Positions 4,305-22,247 of a stretch of DNA of 34,656 nt are shown in pieces; position 1 is the first letter of the stretch, and each line of letters begins with the position of its first letter. Where the stretch lies: positions 1-34,656 of IMG/VR virus record IMGVR_UViG_3300010412_000046, one strand, 5' to 3'. Below the pieces are notes generated by a model. That model saw nothing but the letters and a program-made list of their open reading frames with translations, was not told the DNA's origin and searched no databases. Source of the DNA: a virus. Both the position numbers and the translations under genes were made by a program.

Positions 4305-4606
4305 TCATACTCTCTCCAAGCTCGAATCCATTCAAGCTTTTTTTCTTTAGTCCAGCCACTGAGATAAGCGTTCTCAAAATCAAAAAGAGTAAGAACATCT
4401 TCTTCTTCATGTACTGATACGTCACCTACAACTTCGCCAAGATGAGTTTGAGAAAATTCTTTAACTTGCCCGCTCGACAGGTAGTCAATCAGTTGTTGCT
4501 GATCTAGCGGTTCTTTGAAACCTAGAGCGTCAAAATCTTCACGAGGAATAGCGTATTTTAGCTTGAAGTGTGATAGGGTGGTAATTAGTACGTATTCATC
4601 AGACAT
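4301..4606 (-). CDS. Acidic phage protein of unknown function
   Basis: 101 aa and acidic. [21 protein letters not shown] suggests an N-terminal beta region; the C-terminus, KLEWIRAWREYD, is helical. ATG 4606 lies inside the end of tilS (8-bp overlap), so it is translated in the same operon. No family recognised. Confidence 0.7.
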   Translation of the reverse strand: MSDEYVLITTLSHFKLKYAIPREDFDALGFKEPLDQQQLIDYLSSGQVKEFSQTHLGEVVGDVSVHEEEDVLTLFDFENAYLSGWTKEKKLEWIRAWREYD

Positions 4607-5192
4607 TGGTTATCACTTTTTTAAGAATTGTTTTATATAGACCAGGATTGACCCGCAGAGCGTGAGGCATTAACTCTTTACGAATGTAATTACGAGTTAG
4701 TGATAAATTGTTATTAGACTCATCTTCAACCCAAGACAATTGATTACGTTTAGCATACTCGATAAAATCTTGTTTACGGGTAGCGAGAAATGGTCGAACT
4801 ACATTATCGTTAGCAAAAGGGATTAATTTACTATTACCGTGTAAGCTAGACCACAACCAGGTTTCTACACAATCATCAAGGGTATGTGCTGTAACAACCG
4901 TCTGTGGAATTTGATGGAATAAGTTATAACGCTCATTACGCCAAAACTCCTCTGGAGAGACTCCTGTAGGACGAGTACTAGTAATACGTTTAGTAATAAT
5001 AGTACACTCGTATTTTTGAGCAAGCGCTCGTACAAAAGTAGCTGAGGTATCAGAGTTACCTTCATTATGGTCTACATGTACGATAGTAACATTATGATTA
5101 CGAGATAAAAAATGCAAAGCTGCAACAGAATCTATACCGCCACTAACAGCAACTGCAAGTGTTCTTGGCAATTTAAGTGATAGTTTAATCAT
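4599..5192 (-). CDS. tilS: tRNA(Ile)-lysidine synthase, N-terminal catalytic core
   Basis: 197 aa. TilS uses ATP and lysine to convert C34 of tRNA-Ile2 (anticodon CAU) to lysidine, changing decoding from AUG to AUA. Seen here: PP-loop SGGIDS near residue 17, HVDHN near 40, the TilS signature [13 protein letters not shown] in the middle, and [20 protein letters not shown] followed by RVNPG. Bacterial enzymes have 300-430 residues; this one keeps only the N-terminal ATPase domain. I chose ATG 5192, which overlaps the HNH TGA as ATGA; ATG 5201 is the alternative. A CAT-anticodon tRNA with TilS-type acceptor pairs lies upstream in the same operon, which strongly supports function. Confidence 0.9.
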
Positions 5193-5794
5193 TTCCACCA
5201 TTCTTCGCTGATATGATAATTACTTTTACGAATATTATCTTTTGCTGGTAGGTATTGTAAGTTCCAAGGTACATGTAGACCGCACACGTACTTACCCTGC
5301 AACGGTACTATATGGTCTACATGATAGTCTGGTGGTCTATTCTTATATATATCTTTTAATTCTGCTAAAAACTTAAAAGCAATCGGTATCTGTTTTTTAG
5401 CTCTACGCATAGCCATATAAGCAGCTATAGCTTCTTTAGTATTTTGTTGTTCTATGTGCCTACAATTTTTGCAAAAGGCTTGAATAGCGCATTTTTTACT
5501 AGTATTTTTACCAAACTCTTGCTTTGATAAAATTAAACCACACTTGGTACATATTTTTTTATCAAAGGTATCTAAAAGAGTTGTAACATAATGTTTTCCT
5601 GATACGTGATTATAAAAATAGTGAGTTAGGATATTCGATAATTTTTTGGCATTTTTGTACGAAGAATTTATACGAACATAGTCACTTACACCCTGCTCTA
5701 GTATAAGGGCTTCAATTATTAAGTCTTTTATATAGAAGGTATCTTCTACATTTTTGAAATATTCATAAACATAGTACTGTATGCTAGTACTCAT
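5189..5794 (-). CDS. HNH endonuclease with zinc ribbon
   Basis: 201 aa. The C-terminus carries an HNH motif, [20 protein letters not shown], followed by AKDNIRKSN, the classical beta-beta-alpha metal nuclease. Midway, CTKCGLI.. and CKNCR form a likely zinc ribbon. A paralogue with the same layout lies at 19121-19813. It sits between tRNA-Ile2 and tilS and its TGA overlaps the tilS start. Free-standing HNH genes of this kind are often homing endonucleases. AAAGGAG precedes ATG 5794. Confidence 0.85.
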
Positions 5795-5869: not shown

Positions 5870-5946
5870 TGGTAGTCCTACCCTGACTCGAACAGGGAAC
5901 CTTTCCCTTATGAGGGGACTTCTCTAACCAATTGAGATATAGGACC
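5870..5946 (-). tRNA. tRNA-Ile2(CAT), likely lysidine-modified
   Basis: Cloverleaf with acceptor GGTCCTA/TAGGACT, anticodon arm TCCC, loop CTCATAA, GGGA, T arm CCCTG, TTCGAGT, CAGGG, discriminator A and encoded CCA. Anticodon CAT could mean Met or Ile2. The acceptor has C4-G69 and C5-G68, the pairs known to favour E. coli TilS recognition over elongator Met, and a tilS gene lies in the same operon. Ile2, reading AUA, is therefore preferred. Confidence 0.85.
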
Positions 5947-7445: not shown

Positions 7446-7877
7446 TTATTGACCAGTACGGCGATTATCAGATTTAATTTTGATACGTACAGGTGCTTTT
7501 TCTTCTGGTAGTTTGACCTCTAGACTAATGCTCAAAATACCGTTGTCAAGACTAGCTCCAGCAACTTCAGTATACTCACTTAACCTAAAGCTTTTAACAA
7601 ATTTGCGAGTTGAAATACCTCGATGCACGTATTGAGTTTCGGGTCTACGCATTGGACGCTCGCCAGAAACTGTAAGCACATTATCTTTAAGGTCAATAGA
7701 TAAATCGTCTTGAACAAAACCAGCAATAGCTAGCTCAATTTCATACAACTTATCATCAATCTTTACCACGTTATGTGGTGGATAAGTGTCTTTGGCGTGG
7801 TTAGATACTTGTTCTAACTGACTCAAGATATGGTCAAAACCAATAAAAGCTGTTTTAGGTAGGAATGTACCTGTCAT
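7446..7877 (-). CDS. hsp20: Small heat shock protein, Hsp20/IbpA family
   Basis: 143 aa. Hsp20 proteins are ATP-independent holdases that form oligomers and prevent aggregation. The alpha-crystallin domain spans about residues 35-130: KIDDKLYEIELAIAGFVQDDLSIDL, then LTVSGER, then RGISTRKFVKSFRL, ASLDNGILSISL. The C-terminal APVRIKIK resembles the I-x-I anchor. Length is as in bacterial IbpA. Several marine phages carry Hsp20, probably as capsid-assembly helpers. AAGGAG precedes the ATG, and the promoter at 7939-7967 is a full consensus. Confidence 0.92.
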   Translation of the reverse strand: MTGTFLPKTAFIGFDHILSQLEQVSNHAKDTYPPHNVVKIDDKLYEIELAIAGFVQDDLSIDLKDNVLTVSGERPMRRPETQYVHRGISTRKFVKSFRLSEYTEVAGASLDNGILSISLEVKLPEEKAPVRIKIKSDNRRTGQ

Positions 7878-14481: not shown

Positions 14482-15138
14482 TCAAGTGTATAACCTATCA
14501 AATTCTGCTCTACGGTTTTTAAACTCATATAAAAAAGGTACAACTGATTTTTCAAATATCTGAGGTTCTCCAGATTCGTTAGTAATAGCTACAACACAGT
14601 CTCTAATATTAGTACCAAACAACTCATTGTGTGCTAAAGCATAAAAGCAACATTGCAAAAAGTAATCACGGATCTGTGTTACTTGTTTTGTTTTTTTAGA
14701 AGTTTTGAAGTCGATGATGGTAGGTTTACCCTTCCAAACACCGACCATATCTGTTCTACCGGCAGCTCTATACTTATTGCTCCATAGAATCTGTTCTTGA
14801 CCGTAAATTTCTTCTAAGCCAGGTTCTACAACAGAAATTAAGTCTCTAGTCATTTTTCTAATGTCTAAAGGTTCAGACCTGAGCTCTTCCCAAATTGATT
14901 CTTTATTAAAATGACGCTCAGCATATGAGTGAATCAAAGTACCTCTATCTGTGGCTTCTTTTGATACTCTCGCAGCTTCTTCTTCTCCTACCCGCTCTTT
15001 CCATTTTGCTAACCACGGATTATTAGCAGTTTTGCCTAAGATAGTGGTTATAGAAGGATAAGCTCCGTCTGGTGTAAAATAAGTGCGGCCTGTCGGTAGC
15101 GTATCAACAGGCATATCAGTTAAATAATTAAATTTCAT
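14482..15138 (-). CDS. PD-(D/E)XK exonuclease, RecB/Cas4-like
   Basis: 218 aa. YRAAGRTDMVGVWKGKPTII followed by DFKTSKK gives the catalytic D..DxK core near residues 130-150, followed by the QCCFYALAHNELFG helix (the RecB motif QxxxY). HSYAERHF upstream fits the family's leading His. Length and domain order resemble phage RecB-type exonucleases used in host DNA breakdown or recombination. ATG overlaps the preceding TGA as ATGA. Confidence 0.87.
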   Translation of the reverse strand: MKFNYLTDMPVDTLPTGRTYFTPDGAYPSITTILGKTANNPWLAKWKERVGEEEAARVSKEATDRGTLIHSYAERHFNKESIWEELRSEPLDIRKMTRDLISVVEPGLEEIYGQEQILWSNKYRAAGRTDMVGVWKGKPTIIDFKTSKKTKQVTQIRDYFLQCCFYALAHNELFGTNIRDCVVAITNESGEPQIFEKSVVPFLYEFKNRRAEFDRLYT

Positions 15139-16316
15139 AGTGGCTCGCTTATTATTATTGGTTGTTGTTCTGCAGCTAGCAAGTTAAGTACTCTAGTTAA
15201 ATAAGCACTAGAGCTAGAAGATACAGTAAACACTCGTAATTGTTTAGGAAACCAAGGTATTGCGCAATTAGACAGTATATGCCCTGTATGATGCTCACTT
15301 TTACTTGTAAAATAAGATGAATAAGCTTCTTGTGTACACAAAAATACACTATCTAAGGACACGTTTTGTAAAGCTTGTTTAGTAGGTAGCTTTAACATAT
15401 TACGGTTTAATATGTTAGTATCTGCAAACTCTTGTTTGTCTGCGCAATATACCAGGCTATTCGTTTTGAGCAACTGGTCAACCATCTGTTCTGTAGAGCA
15501 AGAGTGGCCGGCATCTGTTCCTATGCAAATATTTTTCCAACTAGCGTTACCTAGCAAACAAGCTGCACCAATAGCAGTAGACGCAGCGCCGCTTTTTGGA
15601 GAGAAAGCGATATCAGTAAAATCACTATCAAGTAGCACTGAGTTGGTAATGAAGTTTGCAGCTCCGCGCCCTACTACAACTAGGCGCGTTAGTGTGGTCT
15701 GACTACTAAGCCAATTGGCTAAATGTAACAGTATGGTTTTATATACTTCTTGGACAGAACAAGCTATATCTGGAGAAGCGTAAGTAGAGCCGACTCCATA
15801 TTCAAGGTTGTGCAATAGTTGATAACCTTTTTCTGTTTTTTGTACTAAATTGTCTAAAATCCAGTCGCTAAAAACAGGACGACCGCGCAGAGCTAGAGCT
15901 CTGACGCGGTGTTCTTCAGTAGCAGGGTCATAGCCTAGCAATCTGGTAGCAGCGCTGTAAAATAGTGCTAGCGAGTTGGGATACTCAAACTCAGATAACC
16001 AATGCACCATAGAATCAGCCCAATACCCTAAACCAGTGTATATTGAATCAAGCATAATAACTGCGCAATTATTCCAACCTCTAGTAGCCACAGCAGCAGC
16101 TACTAGCGATTGTCTATAGTCAACTAGTTCAAAATTCTTTAGCTTAAACTGATTCTTGACTCGTTTATCCCAGGACACAACTGTGTCAAACAAGTTAGAT
16201 TGGTTGGCTAAGCTAATAGCATCATCACCAATAAATCCTGCTCTTACTCGGTTATTCTCAACAATAGCAGCGCTTTGCTGTTCTTGTAGATTAACTCCGA
16301 GTATTTTTACTGACAT
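15135..16316 (-). CDS. Carbamoyltransferase-like (NodU/TobZ, ASKHA fold) protein
   Basis: 393 aa. The start MSVKILGVNLQEQQSAAIVE matches the first ASKHA phosphate loop of carbamoyltransferases. Then LALFYSAATRLLGYDPATEE and HRVRALA fits the family's FYxxxTxxLGF..E.K.MxLA segment. LVVVGRGAANFITNSVLL and SPKSGAASTAIGAACLL fit the adenylate-binding GGxAxN and GDxGxAxGAA regions. The family transfers carbamoyl groups to sugars, antibiotics or, in phages, possibly DNA bases. It is shorter than NodU (about 560 aa) and several residues differ, so activity is uncertain. Coupled to the nuclease gene by ATGA. Confidence 0.65.
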   Translation of the reverse strand: MSVKILGVNLQEQQSAAIVENNRVRAGFIGDDAISLANQSNLFDTVVSWDKRVKNQFKLKNFELVDYRQSLVAAAVATRGWNNCAVIMLDSIYTGLGYWADSMVHWLSEFEYPNSLALFYSAATRLLGYDPATEEHRVRALALRGRPVFSDWILDNLVQKTEKGYQLLHNLEYGVGSTYASPDIACSVQEVYKTILLHLANWLSSQTTLTRLVVVGRGAANFITNSVLLDSDFTDIAFSPKSGAASTAIGAACLLGNASWKNICIGTDAGHSCSTEQMVDQLLKTNSLVYCADKQEFADTNILNRNMLKLPTKQALQNVSLDSVFLCTQEAYSSYFTSKSEHHTGHILSNCAIPWFPKQLRVFTVSSSSSAYLTRVLNLLAAEQQPIIISEPL

Positions 16317-20124: not shown

Positions 20125-20373
20125 ATGAAAGCGTTTAAAGGCACTTTTAGAAAAAAGAATGGCGAAATTCGTGAAATGCTGTTTGCACATCTACGAGATT
20201 TGCCTGATTCATTTCTTGATGCAAAAATTGTAGGCTCTGGGTCTGAAAAAACCTATCCTGAAGGCATGGAACTAGTCTGGGATATTGAAGAAGATAACTT
20301 TCGTATTTTCAACTGGAATACTCAGACTGGTCCTGTAGAACAGGTAAAAATTGACTCGAACTACTATAACTGA
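20125..20373 (+). CDS. SH3-barrel protein, WYL_2-like
   Basis: 82 aa. FKGTFRKKNGEIREMLFAHL and EGMELVWDIEEDNFRIFNWN resemble small Sm-like/SH3-barrel WYL_2 proteins of phages, thought to bind nucleic acid or small ligands. Excellent ribosome site (GGAGGT). Role unknown. Confidence 0.65.
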   Translation: MKAFKGTFRKKNGEIREMLFAHLRDLPDSFLDAKIVGSGSEKTYPEGMELVWDIEEDNFRIFNWNTQTGPVEQVKIDSNYYN

Positions 20374-20542
20374 ACATTATGTGCTTGTAGAAACTGACGA
20401 TATAGATTTTTCTGTATTACGAGCGGCTGTGCAAGCATATGAACAAACACAGCTAGCATATTATATTAATGAGTTGCCATTAGAGTTAACTGAACTACTT
20501 GTAACAGAGTTACAAAAAACTATAGACGACGAAGAGCTCTGA
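20351..20542 (+). CDS. Small acidic protein, TTG start
   Basis: 63 aa from TTG 20351 with AGG 6 nt upstream; GTG 20381 is an alternative. Acidic, helical (LRAAVQAYEQTQLAYYINEL). It ends next to the tmRNA 5' part and overlaps the previous gene by 23 bp. Function unknown. Confidence 0.5.
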   Translation: MTRTTITEHYVLVETDDIDFSVLRAAVQAYEQTQLAYYINELPLELTELLVTELQKTIDDEEL

Positions 20543-20595
20543 TTACGTAAATCGGATGCAGCATGGACCCGGTTTCGATACCGGCGGCTCCACCA
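20543..20595 (+). ncRNA. tmRNA acceptor piece
   Basis: Contains the 5' strand of the post-tag helix (GTAAAT), the 3' strand of P2 (CAGCATG), the T arm CCGG-TTTCGATA-CCGG, the acceptor 3' strand CGGCTCC and encoded ACCA (20592-20595). The T arm is slightly irregular: five pairs with a 6-nt loop or four with an 8-nt loop. No 5' acceptor strand lies upstream, which rules out an ordinary tRNA. Confidence 0.9.
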
Positions 20596-20699
20596 CAGAT
20601 ACATCATAATAGTCTCTGAAAAGAGATGGGCGGATTTAAACCTATACAGGTTGCAGCCTAAAATAAGGCGAGTTTAAGGTAGGTTGGTGTATCTTTGAT
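20596..20699 (+). other. tmRNA intervening segment, four-way-junction fold
   Basis: This segment must be removed to make two-piece tmRNA. AGATACA (20597-20603) pairs with TGTATCT (20688-20694). Inside are TCTCT-GAAA-AGAGA (20613-20626), AACCT-ATAC-AGGTT (20639-20652) and GCCT-AAAATA-AGGC (20656-20669). Together they make a cloverleaf-like junction that could guide processing. Confidence 0.7.
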
Positions 20700-20852
20700 G
20701 GGGCCGAAAGGGATTCGACATGTTGAGCATGAGGAAACCAGGAGCCAGTGAGCAAGCGACTGAAACCGCAAGACAATCAATAAGTGCCAACGACAACGTA
20801 GCACCTGTTAAATTAGCTCTAGCAGCTTAATTTACATCGGTATGGCTCCACC
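20700..20852 (+). ncRNA. tmRNA coding piece
   Basis: Starts with acceptor strand GGGGCCG and the D-loop-like AAAGGGATTCGAC, then the P2 strand CATGTTG and a pseudoknot-like region (CAGT..ACTG). Resume codon GCC at 20786 follows AATAAGT. The tag ends TTAGCTCTAGCAGCTTAA, i.e. ..LALAA, a ClpXP-type degron. Downstream, CGGT/ACCG (20838-20853) forms a hairpin; the true 3' end is unknown. Confidence 0.88.
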
Positions 20853-20898
20853 GCGAAACAGAACGGGCCGTTTCACATCACATTACATAGGAGTCTAA

Positions 20899-21666
20899 AT
20901 GACCATAACTACAACACATACAATACCTACTTATACTATACCAAGCGTTACTTCAAAAAATCGGCTAGGCGAAGCTTTTAAACCTAAACGCGCTGGTACA
21001 AAATCTGCTCACATCGTTTTTCTTCTAGACGATTCTGGTTCGATGCAGACCTGTAGAAAAAGCACAATCGAAGGCTTTAATGAATACGTAAAAAGCCAAA
21101 AAATTCACTCTGTTGAAACAGGTATACCCACGTTTGCCTCACTATACAAGTTCGATGGCCGAAGTGTAATCTGCGTATACGACCGTAAAGATATAGCTAA
21201 TACTCCCCTTCTCAGTGAAGAAACATACAATCCTCAAGGTTGGACTAACCTATACGACGGAATTGGCGGAGTTATGATGCAAGTTAATACTGCTCTTGCA
21301 CAACATAAAAAAGCAGACCGGGATTCTATTATCATCAACATTCTAACTGATGGTCAAGAAAATTCCTCGCGCACTTTTAGTAACTTTGACATTAAAATCA
21401 TGGTAGAAAAAGCTGAGAGTAAGAACTGGGGATTCATGTTCCTTGGTGCAAACATTGATGCTTTTGCAGTCGGTTCCACAATGGGGTTCTCTGCACAAAA
21501 TACCATGCAGTATGATACTAGCAACATGCTTAATACTATGAAAACTGTAGCTCGTCGCAGTAACGATATGAAAACTGCATACGCTAGCGGTTTGGGTACA
21601 TCAGCTGTTTATGCTTCTACTGCATTCACAGAAGAAGAACTTACTTCGGTTAGAGATAAAAAATGA
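20899..21666 (+). CDS. VWA-domain protein
   Basis: 255 aa. A von Willebrand A domain starts near residue 37: IVFLLDDSGSM holds the metal site DxSxS, GWTNLYDGIG gives the conserved Thr, and IINILTDGQENSS the final Asp. VWA proteins bind partners through a metal ion, often with an ATPase; no MoxR-type ATPase gene is in this window. No signal peptide is seen, so it is cytoplasmic or virion associated. Good ribosome site (AGGAG). Its TGA overlaps the next ATG. Confidence 0.87.
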   Translation: MTITTTHTIPTYTIPSVTSKNRLGEAFKPKRAGTKSAHIVFLLDDSGSMQTCRKSTIEGFNEYVKSQKIHSVETGIPTFASLYKFDGRSVICVYDRKDIANTPLLSEETYNPQGWTNLYDGIGGVMMQVNTALAQHKKADRDSIIINILTDGQENSSRTFSNFDIKIMVEKAESKNWGFMFLGANIDAFAVGSTMGFSAQNTMQYDTSNMLNTMKTVARRSNDMKTAYASGLGTSAVYASTAFTEEELTSVRDKK

Positions 21667-21917: not shown

Positions 21918-22247
21918 ATGAAGAATCTACTAATCGCAACTATTGCTGCCCTAACTGTAACTACTGCAGCTTCTGCTCAGGAGCTAACCTGGGGTGGATA
22001 TGGTGAGTATCAAATTGAAGCACAAGCTCTAGAGTTCGGTGTCAACACATCGTATAACATCAACAAAGTAACTCTTAGTGCTGAAGCTGTAGTTGCAAAG
22101 CCAAACGGTGCTGATATTGACCTTGATAGCGTGACTCTAGGAGCAGCTTACGCTGTGCATGATAACGCTAGCCTATATACAGAAGTTGAGTTTGATAGCG
22201 ATTTAACCTATCAAGAAACTACTGTTGGGGCCTCTTTTAAGTTCTAA
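21918..22247 (+). CDS. Secreted small outer-membrane-type beta protein
   Basis: 109 aa. Signal peptide with core LLIATIAALTVTTA and ASA cleavage near residue 20. The mature part, about 89 aa, consists of alternating-residue strands (WGGYGEYQIEAQALEFGVNT, SYNINKVTLSAEAVVA, SVTLGAAYAV, SLYTEVEF, TTVGASFKF) and ends in Phe, the usual BAM-recognition residue of outer-membrane barrels. That is enough for about six strands. It could change host surface or permeability during infection, e.g. superinfection exclusion. A strong terminator follows. Confidence 0.72.
   Translation: MKNLLIATIAALTVTTAASAQELTWGGYGEYQIEAQALEFGVNTSYNINKVTLSAEAVVAKPNGADIDLDSVTLGAAYAVHDNASLYTEVEFDSDLTYQETTVGASFKF

Follow-up and report, generated by a model that had tools for sequence, protein, structure and literature searches.

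A phage-encoded, circularly permuted ssrA gene that very probably yields a two-piece tmRNA

A circularly permuted tmRNA gene is present in the window, that is, the whole 34,656-base stretch analysed here, which constitutes a complete IMG/VR record, a linear virus fragment of 34.7 kb. With high confidence, we interpret it as a phage-encoded ssrA gene giving a two-piece tmRNA for host-assisted ribosome rescue. The gene anatomy, the pairing and its covariation, the intact tag, the conserved locus and the lack of SmpB in related records were all observed directly.

Anatomy of the permuted gene

ARAGORN reports a permuted tmRNA at 20504-20921 with the tag ANDNVAPVKLALAA. The Rfam family RF04321 (tmRNA_permuted) matches 20535-20830 with 100 bits (E 1.5e-18; cut-off 47), and RF01849 (alpha_tmRNA), the covariance model that an earlier note on this DNA had named as a check of its reading, matches 20495-20872 with 60.3 bits against a cut-off of 50. 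These signals are far above chance, and the claim of that note, a phage-encoded permuted two-piece tmRNA, is borne out at the gene level, the overall model being of the alpha type. The conserved RNA features extend from ~20536 to ~20872 on the + strand; the original placement at 20543-20852 thus identified the right locus but fell slightly short at both ends.

The acceptor piece lies 5′ of the coding piece (all coordinates of the gene are on the + strand). Its 5′ part, GCTCTGATTACGTAAATCGGATGCAGCAT (20536-20564), begins at the putative 5′ end of the RNA and overlaps the last codons of a 63-aa ORF (20351-20542, +), the TGA stop of which is located inside the conserved acceptor-piece motif GCTCTGATTACG, as is also the case in the related locus L025 (L numbers denote loci of the comparative set described below). 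According to the RF04321 alignment, GGAC, the T-arm, the 3′ acceptor strand (20585-20591), an A and the encoded CCA (20593-20595) occupy 20565-20595. A 104-nt non-coding spacer (20596-20699), the ends of which pair with each other and which is expected to be excised, leads to the start of the coding piece, with the 5′ acceptor strand (20700-20706) and the D-loop AAAGGGATTCGAC (20700-20719). As the earlier note had claimed, the acceptor strands GGGGCCG and CGGCUCC form seven of seven pairs, including G3:U70, which we take to be the alanine identity pair; the encoded CCA and the clean tag frame stand as well. The P2 strand (20719-20725) opens the region that runs to the resume codon (20719-20785), a segment similar to those of L003, L004, L025 and L080. 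The tag frame, found by both ARAGORN and Rfam, starts with an alanine resume codon, encodes ANDNVAPVKLALAA (20786-20827) and ends with TAA, together spanning 20786-20830; the identical tag is encoded in L003 and L004. The coding piece ends near 20872, where the RF01849 match stops, shortly after a 3′ hairpin, GGCUC..GGGCC, around the GAAACAGAA motif (20844-20869). Among the matches listed, 74 of the 88 relatives have this motif, flanked by a helix of 5-10 bp. The T-arm is unusual: it can be read as a 5-bp stem with a U-A closing pair and a 6-nt loop or as a 4-bp stem with an 8-nt loop; its sequence recurs in four other phage contigs (L003 and three more).

For comparison, pattern scans of IMG/VR, in which the main scan required a GGCRGTA T-loop and CTCCACCA, were combined with related loci, and at least 95 genes, at least 88 of them distinct and nearly all from public viral contigs, were parsed. 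Because of this selection, and because the parser fixes most acceptor positions, counts at those positions do not constitute independent evidence. The freely variable pairs, 5 and 6 in the acceptor and 49-51 in the T-stem, covary among the matches listed, with several standard pair types and no broken pair. The spacer ends likewise form a covarying helix: among the matches listed, they pair over a mean of 10.2 bp with their own partner vs 5.6 bp with that of another phage, and in the window the helix comprises 10 bp (20597-20606 with 20685-20694). The two further inter-piece helices proposed earlier fare less well. The 7-bp P2 helix (CAGCAUG, 20559-20565, with CAUGUUG, 20719-20725) is present, but the excess of own over cross-partners is only modest (4.61 vs 4.08), pointing to weak covariation in the relatives. 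The six post-tag pairs (GUAAAU, 20547-20552, with AUUUAC, 20830-20835) can be drawn too, but an independent helix is unsupported, given that the 88 relatives among the matches listed pair equally well with their own partner (5.80 bp) and with an unrelated one (5.73 bp), without covariation.

Apparent exchange of the tRNA-like domain

Comparison of the segments of the gene across the related loci reveals a mosaic. From GGAC through CCA (20565-20595), the window is identical at 31 of 31 positions to L003, L011, L017 and L021, and the same four loci match it at 20 of 20 positions from the start of the coding piece through the D-loop (20700-20719). The adjoining segments have other affinities: the 5′ acceptor segment (20536-20564) is 90-100% identical to L003, L004 and L080, 83% to L025 and ~33% to L011, L017 and L021, and the segment from P2 to the tag (20719-20785) is 85-96% identical to L003, L004, L025 and L080 and 33-39% to L011, L017 and L021. 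Across the two adjoining segments, identity is 83-93% for L080, L004 and L025 and 96-100% for L003. L003 also shares the tRNA-like domain of the window, whereas those of L004, L025 and L080 differ from it (75-80%).

In the permuted gene, the T-arm, acceptor, CCA and D-arm are contiguous on the DNA, and a single exchange of ~155 bp therefore explains the mosaic. The tRNA-like domain of the window was thus probably swapped as one block between related phages; to judge from their sequences, the spacers between the exchanged halves have diverged since. The alternative, that the T-arm and D-arm converged on a canonical TTCGA T-loop, appears rather unlikely. It could draw on the permuted tmRNA of L022, which has the same kind of T-loop and a similar D-loop; however, the complete identity to L011, L017 and L021 extends over freely variable stem pairs and sits between segments that are only 33-39% identical. 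Among the matches listed, the D-loop tracks the T-loop, with AGG(A/T)TCGAC in 81/81 GGCRGTA genes and GGATTCGAC in 6/6 TTCGA genes. By eye, the spacers of L080 and L021 are nearly alike and their tRNA-like domains differ, which suggests that spacers also move between genes.

Relationship to known tmRNAs and origin of the gene

The earlier note described phage tmRNAs as mostly one-piece, which overstated the novelty of the permuted form. A two-piece tmRNA has been reported in the Methylophilales phage Melnitz, along with 53 two-piece structures in sequenced phages, 50 of these 53 from aquatic phages (PMC9004378), and dozens more came from our scans. Matching sequences are present in isolated Ruegeria, Rhodobacter, Phaeobacter and Mesorhizobium phages and in the Sinorhizobium phage Phosso; complete permuted genes were parsed in Melnitz, V10, RcXuper, EliS-L02 and Phosso. 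Given the published structures and these further isolates, the window gene belongs to a known kind. Like the tmRNAs of Melnitz and the aquatic phages, it is phage-encoded, permuted and alpha-type, with a tag ending in LAA, but it differs from them in its TTCGA-type T-loop. Melnitz, moreover, is a myophage of another lineage, whereas the window is T5-like in its DNA polymerase and helicase, and the Melnitz spacer carries an ORF whereas that of the window does not. Phosso, a Sinorhizobium jumbo phage (PV764938), harbours an unannotated permuted tmRNA (108 bits with RF01849) that resembles the window gene in matches within the coding piece; unlike the latter, it has a 410-nt spacer, a GGCGGTA T-loop and the tag ANDNVSTKVALAA, and no proteins of the window were found in its neighbourhood.

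With alphaproteobacterial RF01849 tmRNAs, the window gene shares the permuted order, the acceptor, the D-arm, the resume region and the 3′ ACAGAA motif; it lacks their consensus T-loop, GGCGGUA, and scores 60 bits, compared with 98 for L004. Comparison of the tag with bacterial genes yielded no exact or relaxed match to ANDNVAPVKLALAA in the genomes of ~85,000 species of bacteria and archaea. Together with the conservation of the locus in the phage clade and the TTCGA rather than GGCGGTA T-loop, this leaves the suggested simple transfer from the host lineage unsupported.

Genomic context in the phage

The tmRNA gene sits among phage genes, both in the window and in related phages. Nearby are genes for a DnaB-type helicase, a primase, a family A DNA polymerase and an NAD-dependent ligase. 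The nearest isolate homologues of the polymerase, at 37-41% identity, belong to phages that we take to be T5-like; on sequence comparison, the polymerase and helicase of the window phage resemble those of such phages. A helicase search recovered 51 related viral loci. RF04321 scored above its cut-off in 9 of 48 records, mostly fragments (7 of 46 helicase-derived records plus the same-tag contigs L003 and L004). L025 and L080 share this locus: the genes flanking their tmRNA on both sides are those of the window.

Several other features of the region and the record can be mentioned. Close 3′ of the tmRNA, a small porin-like protein is encoded (21918-22247, +; Pfam Porin_4, under the cut-off), homologues of which lie close to the tmRNAs of L011 and L017, with a similar-looking ORF in L003 and L004. 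A CUA-anticodon tRNA (1828-1902, −), named Pyl by ARAGORN, probably acts as an amber suppressor. Among the 78 chosen ORFs, TAG is the least frequent stop (11, some of these spurious), yet it terminates some likely genes, and amber recoding is not established. A PP-loop protein (4599-5201, −; Pfam ATP_bind_3, TilS-like) is encoded near a CAU-anticodon tRNA (5870-5946, −), possibly a lysidine-modified tRNA-Ile accompanied by its own enzyme. The phage also encodes an Hsp20-family protein (7446-7877, −) and a carbamoyltransferase N-terminal domain (15135-16316, −).

Small protein genes in the spacers

Among the matches listed, spacers of at least 130 nt contain an ORF of a length beyond the dinucleotide-shuffle expectation (p<0.05) in 16 of 24 cases (combined p 1.8e-14; the sequences are partly non-independent). 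Such ORFs, many of which begin directly after AAGGA or GGAG, were found in L025, L006, L084, L143, L082, L094, L095, L132, L148, L150, L163, L207 and others, and several homologous pairs bear the mark of purifying selection. Two families were searched by protein only, ignoring the tmRNA. Family A1 (HWISW motif) comprises 57 loci, of which 47 fall between the acceptor CCA and the coding piece by pattern; in L214, L216 and the partial L222, nesting in a tmRNA was found by Rfam. Differences at the three codon positions of this family number 310/416/978, with a mean dN of 0.10 and dS of 0.59. The copies in L218 and L220 lie outside a tmRNA; their terminal GAGGGGGTCGAACG resembles, by eye, the remnant of a coding-piece start. 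Family A2 (MSEEKKN) is nested in 8 of 25 cases and free-standing in 17, four of the latter a few hundred bases 3′ of a complete permuted tmRNA. Overall, these sequence patterns indicate that long spacers in the permuted tmRNA genes of phages frequently code for small proteins subject to purifying selection.

In Melnitz-1, an unannotated ORF (MZ577095, 44844-45008) begins in the spacer and extends into the coding piece; the predicted protein starts with MFKWLSKTRLVV and has a homologue in L163. Within the clade of the window, at the same locus, a 70-aa ORF fills the 225-nt spacer of L025. A hidden protein gene in the 104-nt spacer of the window is ruled out (longest ORF 11 aa, p 0.72); given the ORFs in its relatives, spacer protein genes thus characterize the family rather than the window. 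No PHROGs family matched any of the eight spacer proteins scanned, nor did the one compared with isolate phages find a match there. In the literature searched, mostly without subscription papers, no publication on genes inside the spacer of a permuted tmRNA was found.

Proposed function

The likely function of the window tmRNA, as its sequence suggests, is trans-translation with the SmpB of the host. SmpB was not found in 49 + 21 related records (~70, fragmentary), although positive controls worked, so that the RNA would have to rely on the protein supplied by the host. We infer that the gene is transcribed and that its product is cleaved, charged and used for ribosome rescue and proteolysis. 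In the folded transcript, the spacer-end helix would lengthen the acceptor stem, and host RNase P, acting at the 5′ end of the coding piece, and a 3′ nuclease, acting at the CCA, would remove the spacer, a route deduced from tRNA-like precursors, the case of permuted tRNAs having been reviewed (PMC3978253). The acceptor stem and P2 would hold the resulting two pieces together, and this tmRNA would be charged by host AlaRS. Host SmpB and EF-Tu would then bring it to ribosomes that have stalled on broken mRNA of phage or host origin, and tagging with ANDNVAPVKLALAA would direct the product to host proteases.

It is very unlikely that the gene is instead a passive relic, either a host ssrA copy acquired through imprecise prophage excision or a leftover attachment site: tmRNA genes are preferred targets of integration, and prophage exchange was raised by the authors of the Melnitz study (PMC9004378), but the two pieces are intact, as is the tag, relatives have kept the gene in the same position and show compensatory changes, the tag is without a counterpart in the species genomes searched, and inspection of the window by eye revealed no integrase. 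Just as improbable is a decoy, in which the tRNA-like domain would titrate SmpB and inhibit trans-translation in the host, the role suggested for the domain-only RNA of mycobacteriophage DS6A (PMC4131195; PMC11915505), because that RNA has no tag reading frame, whereas the window and its relatives maintain an intact frame and stop that a pure decoy would not need.

Implications

As a two-piece tmRNA gene in a further phage clade, the window extends the published observation. Its mosaic structure suggests that, as a result of permutation, the tRNA-like domain recombines as a single block, a notion not found in the literature searched. We consider it likely, from sequence comparison, that the phage permuted tmRNA gene is a composite locus in which the tRNA-like domain and the spacer make up one contiguous, exchangeable module and the spacer, whose removal by tRNA-processing enzymes is expected in any case, is a niche for the gain, loss and exchange of small protein genes. 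The window would then be an empty-spacer member of this family, with the 70-aa gene of L025 in the same place and an unannotated one in the cultured phage Melnitz. The comparison also suggests that the spacer to be cut out can harbour protein genes, in which case one transcript could yield both a ribosome-rescue RNA and an mRNA.
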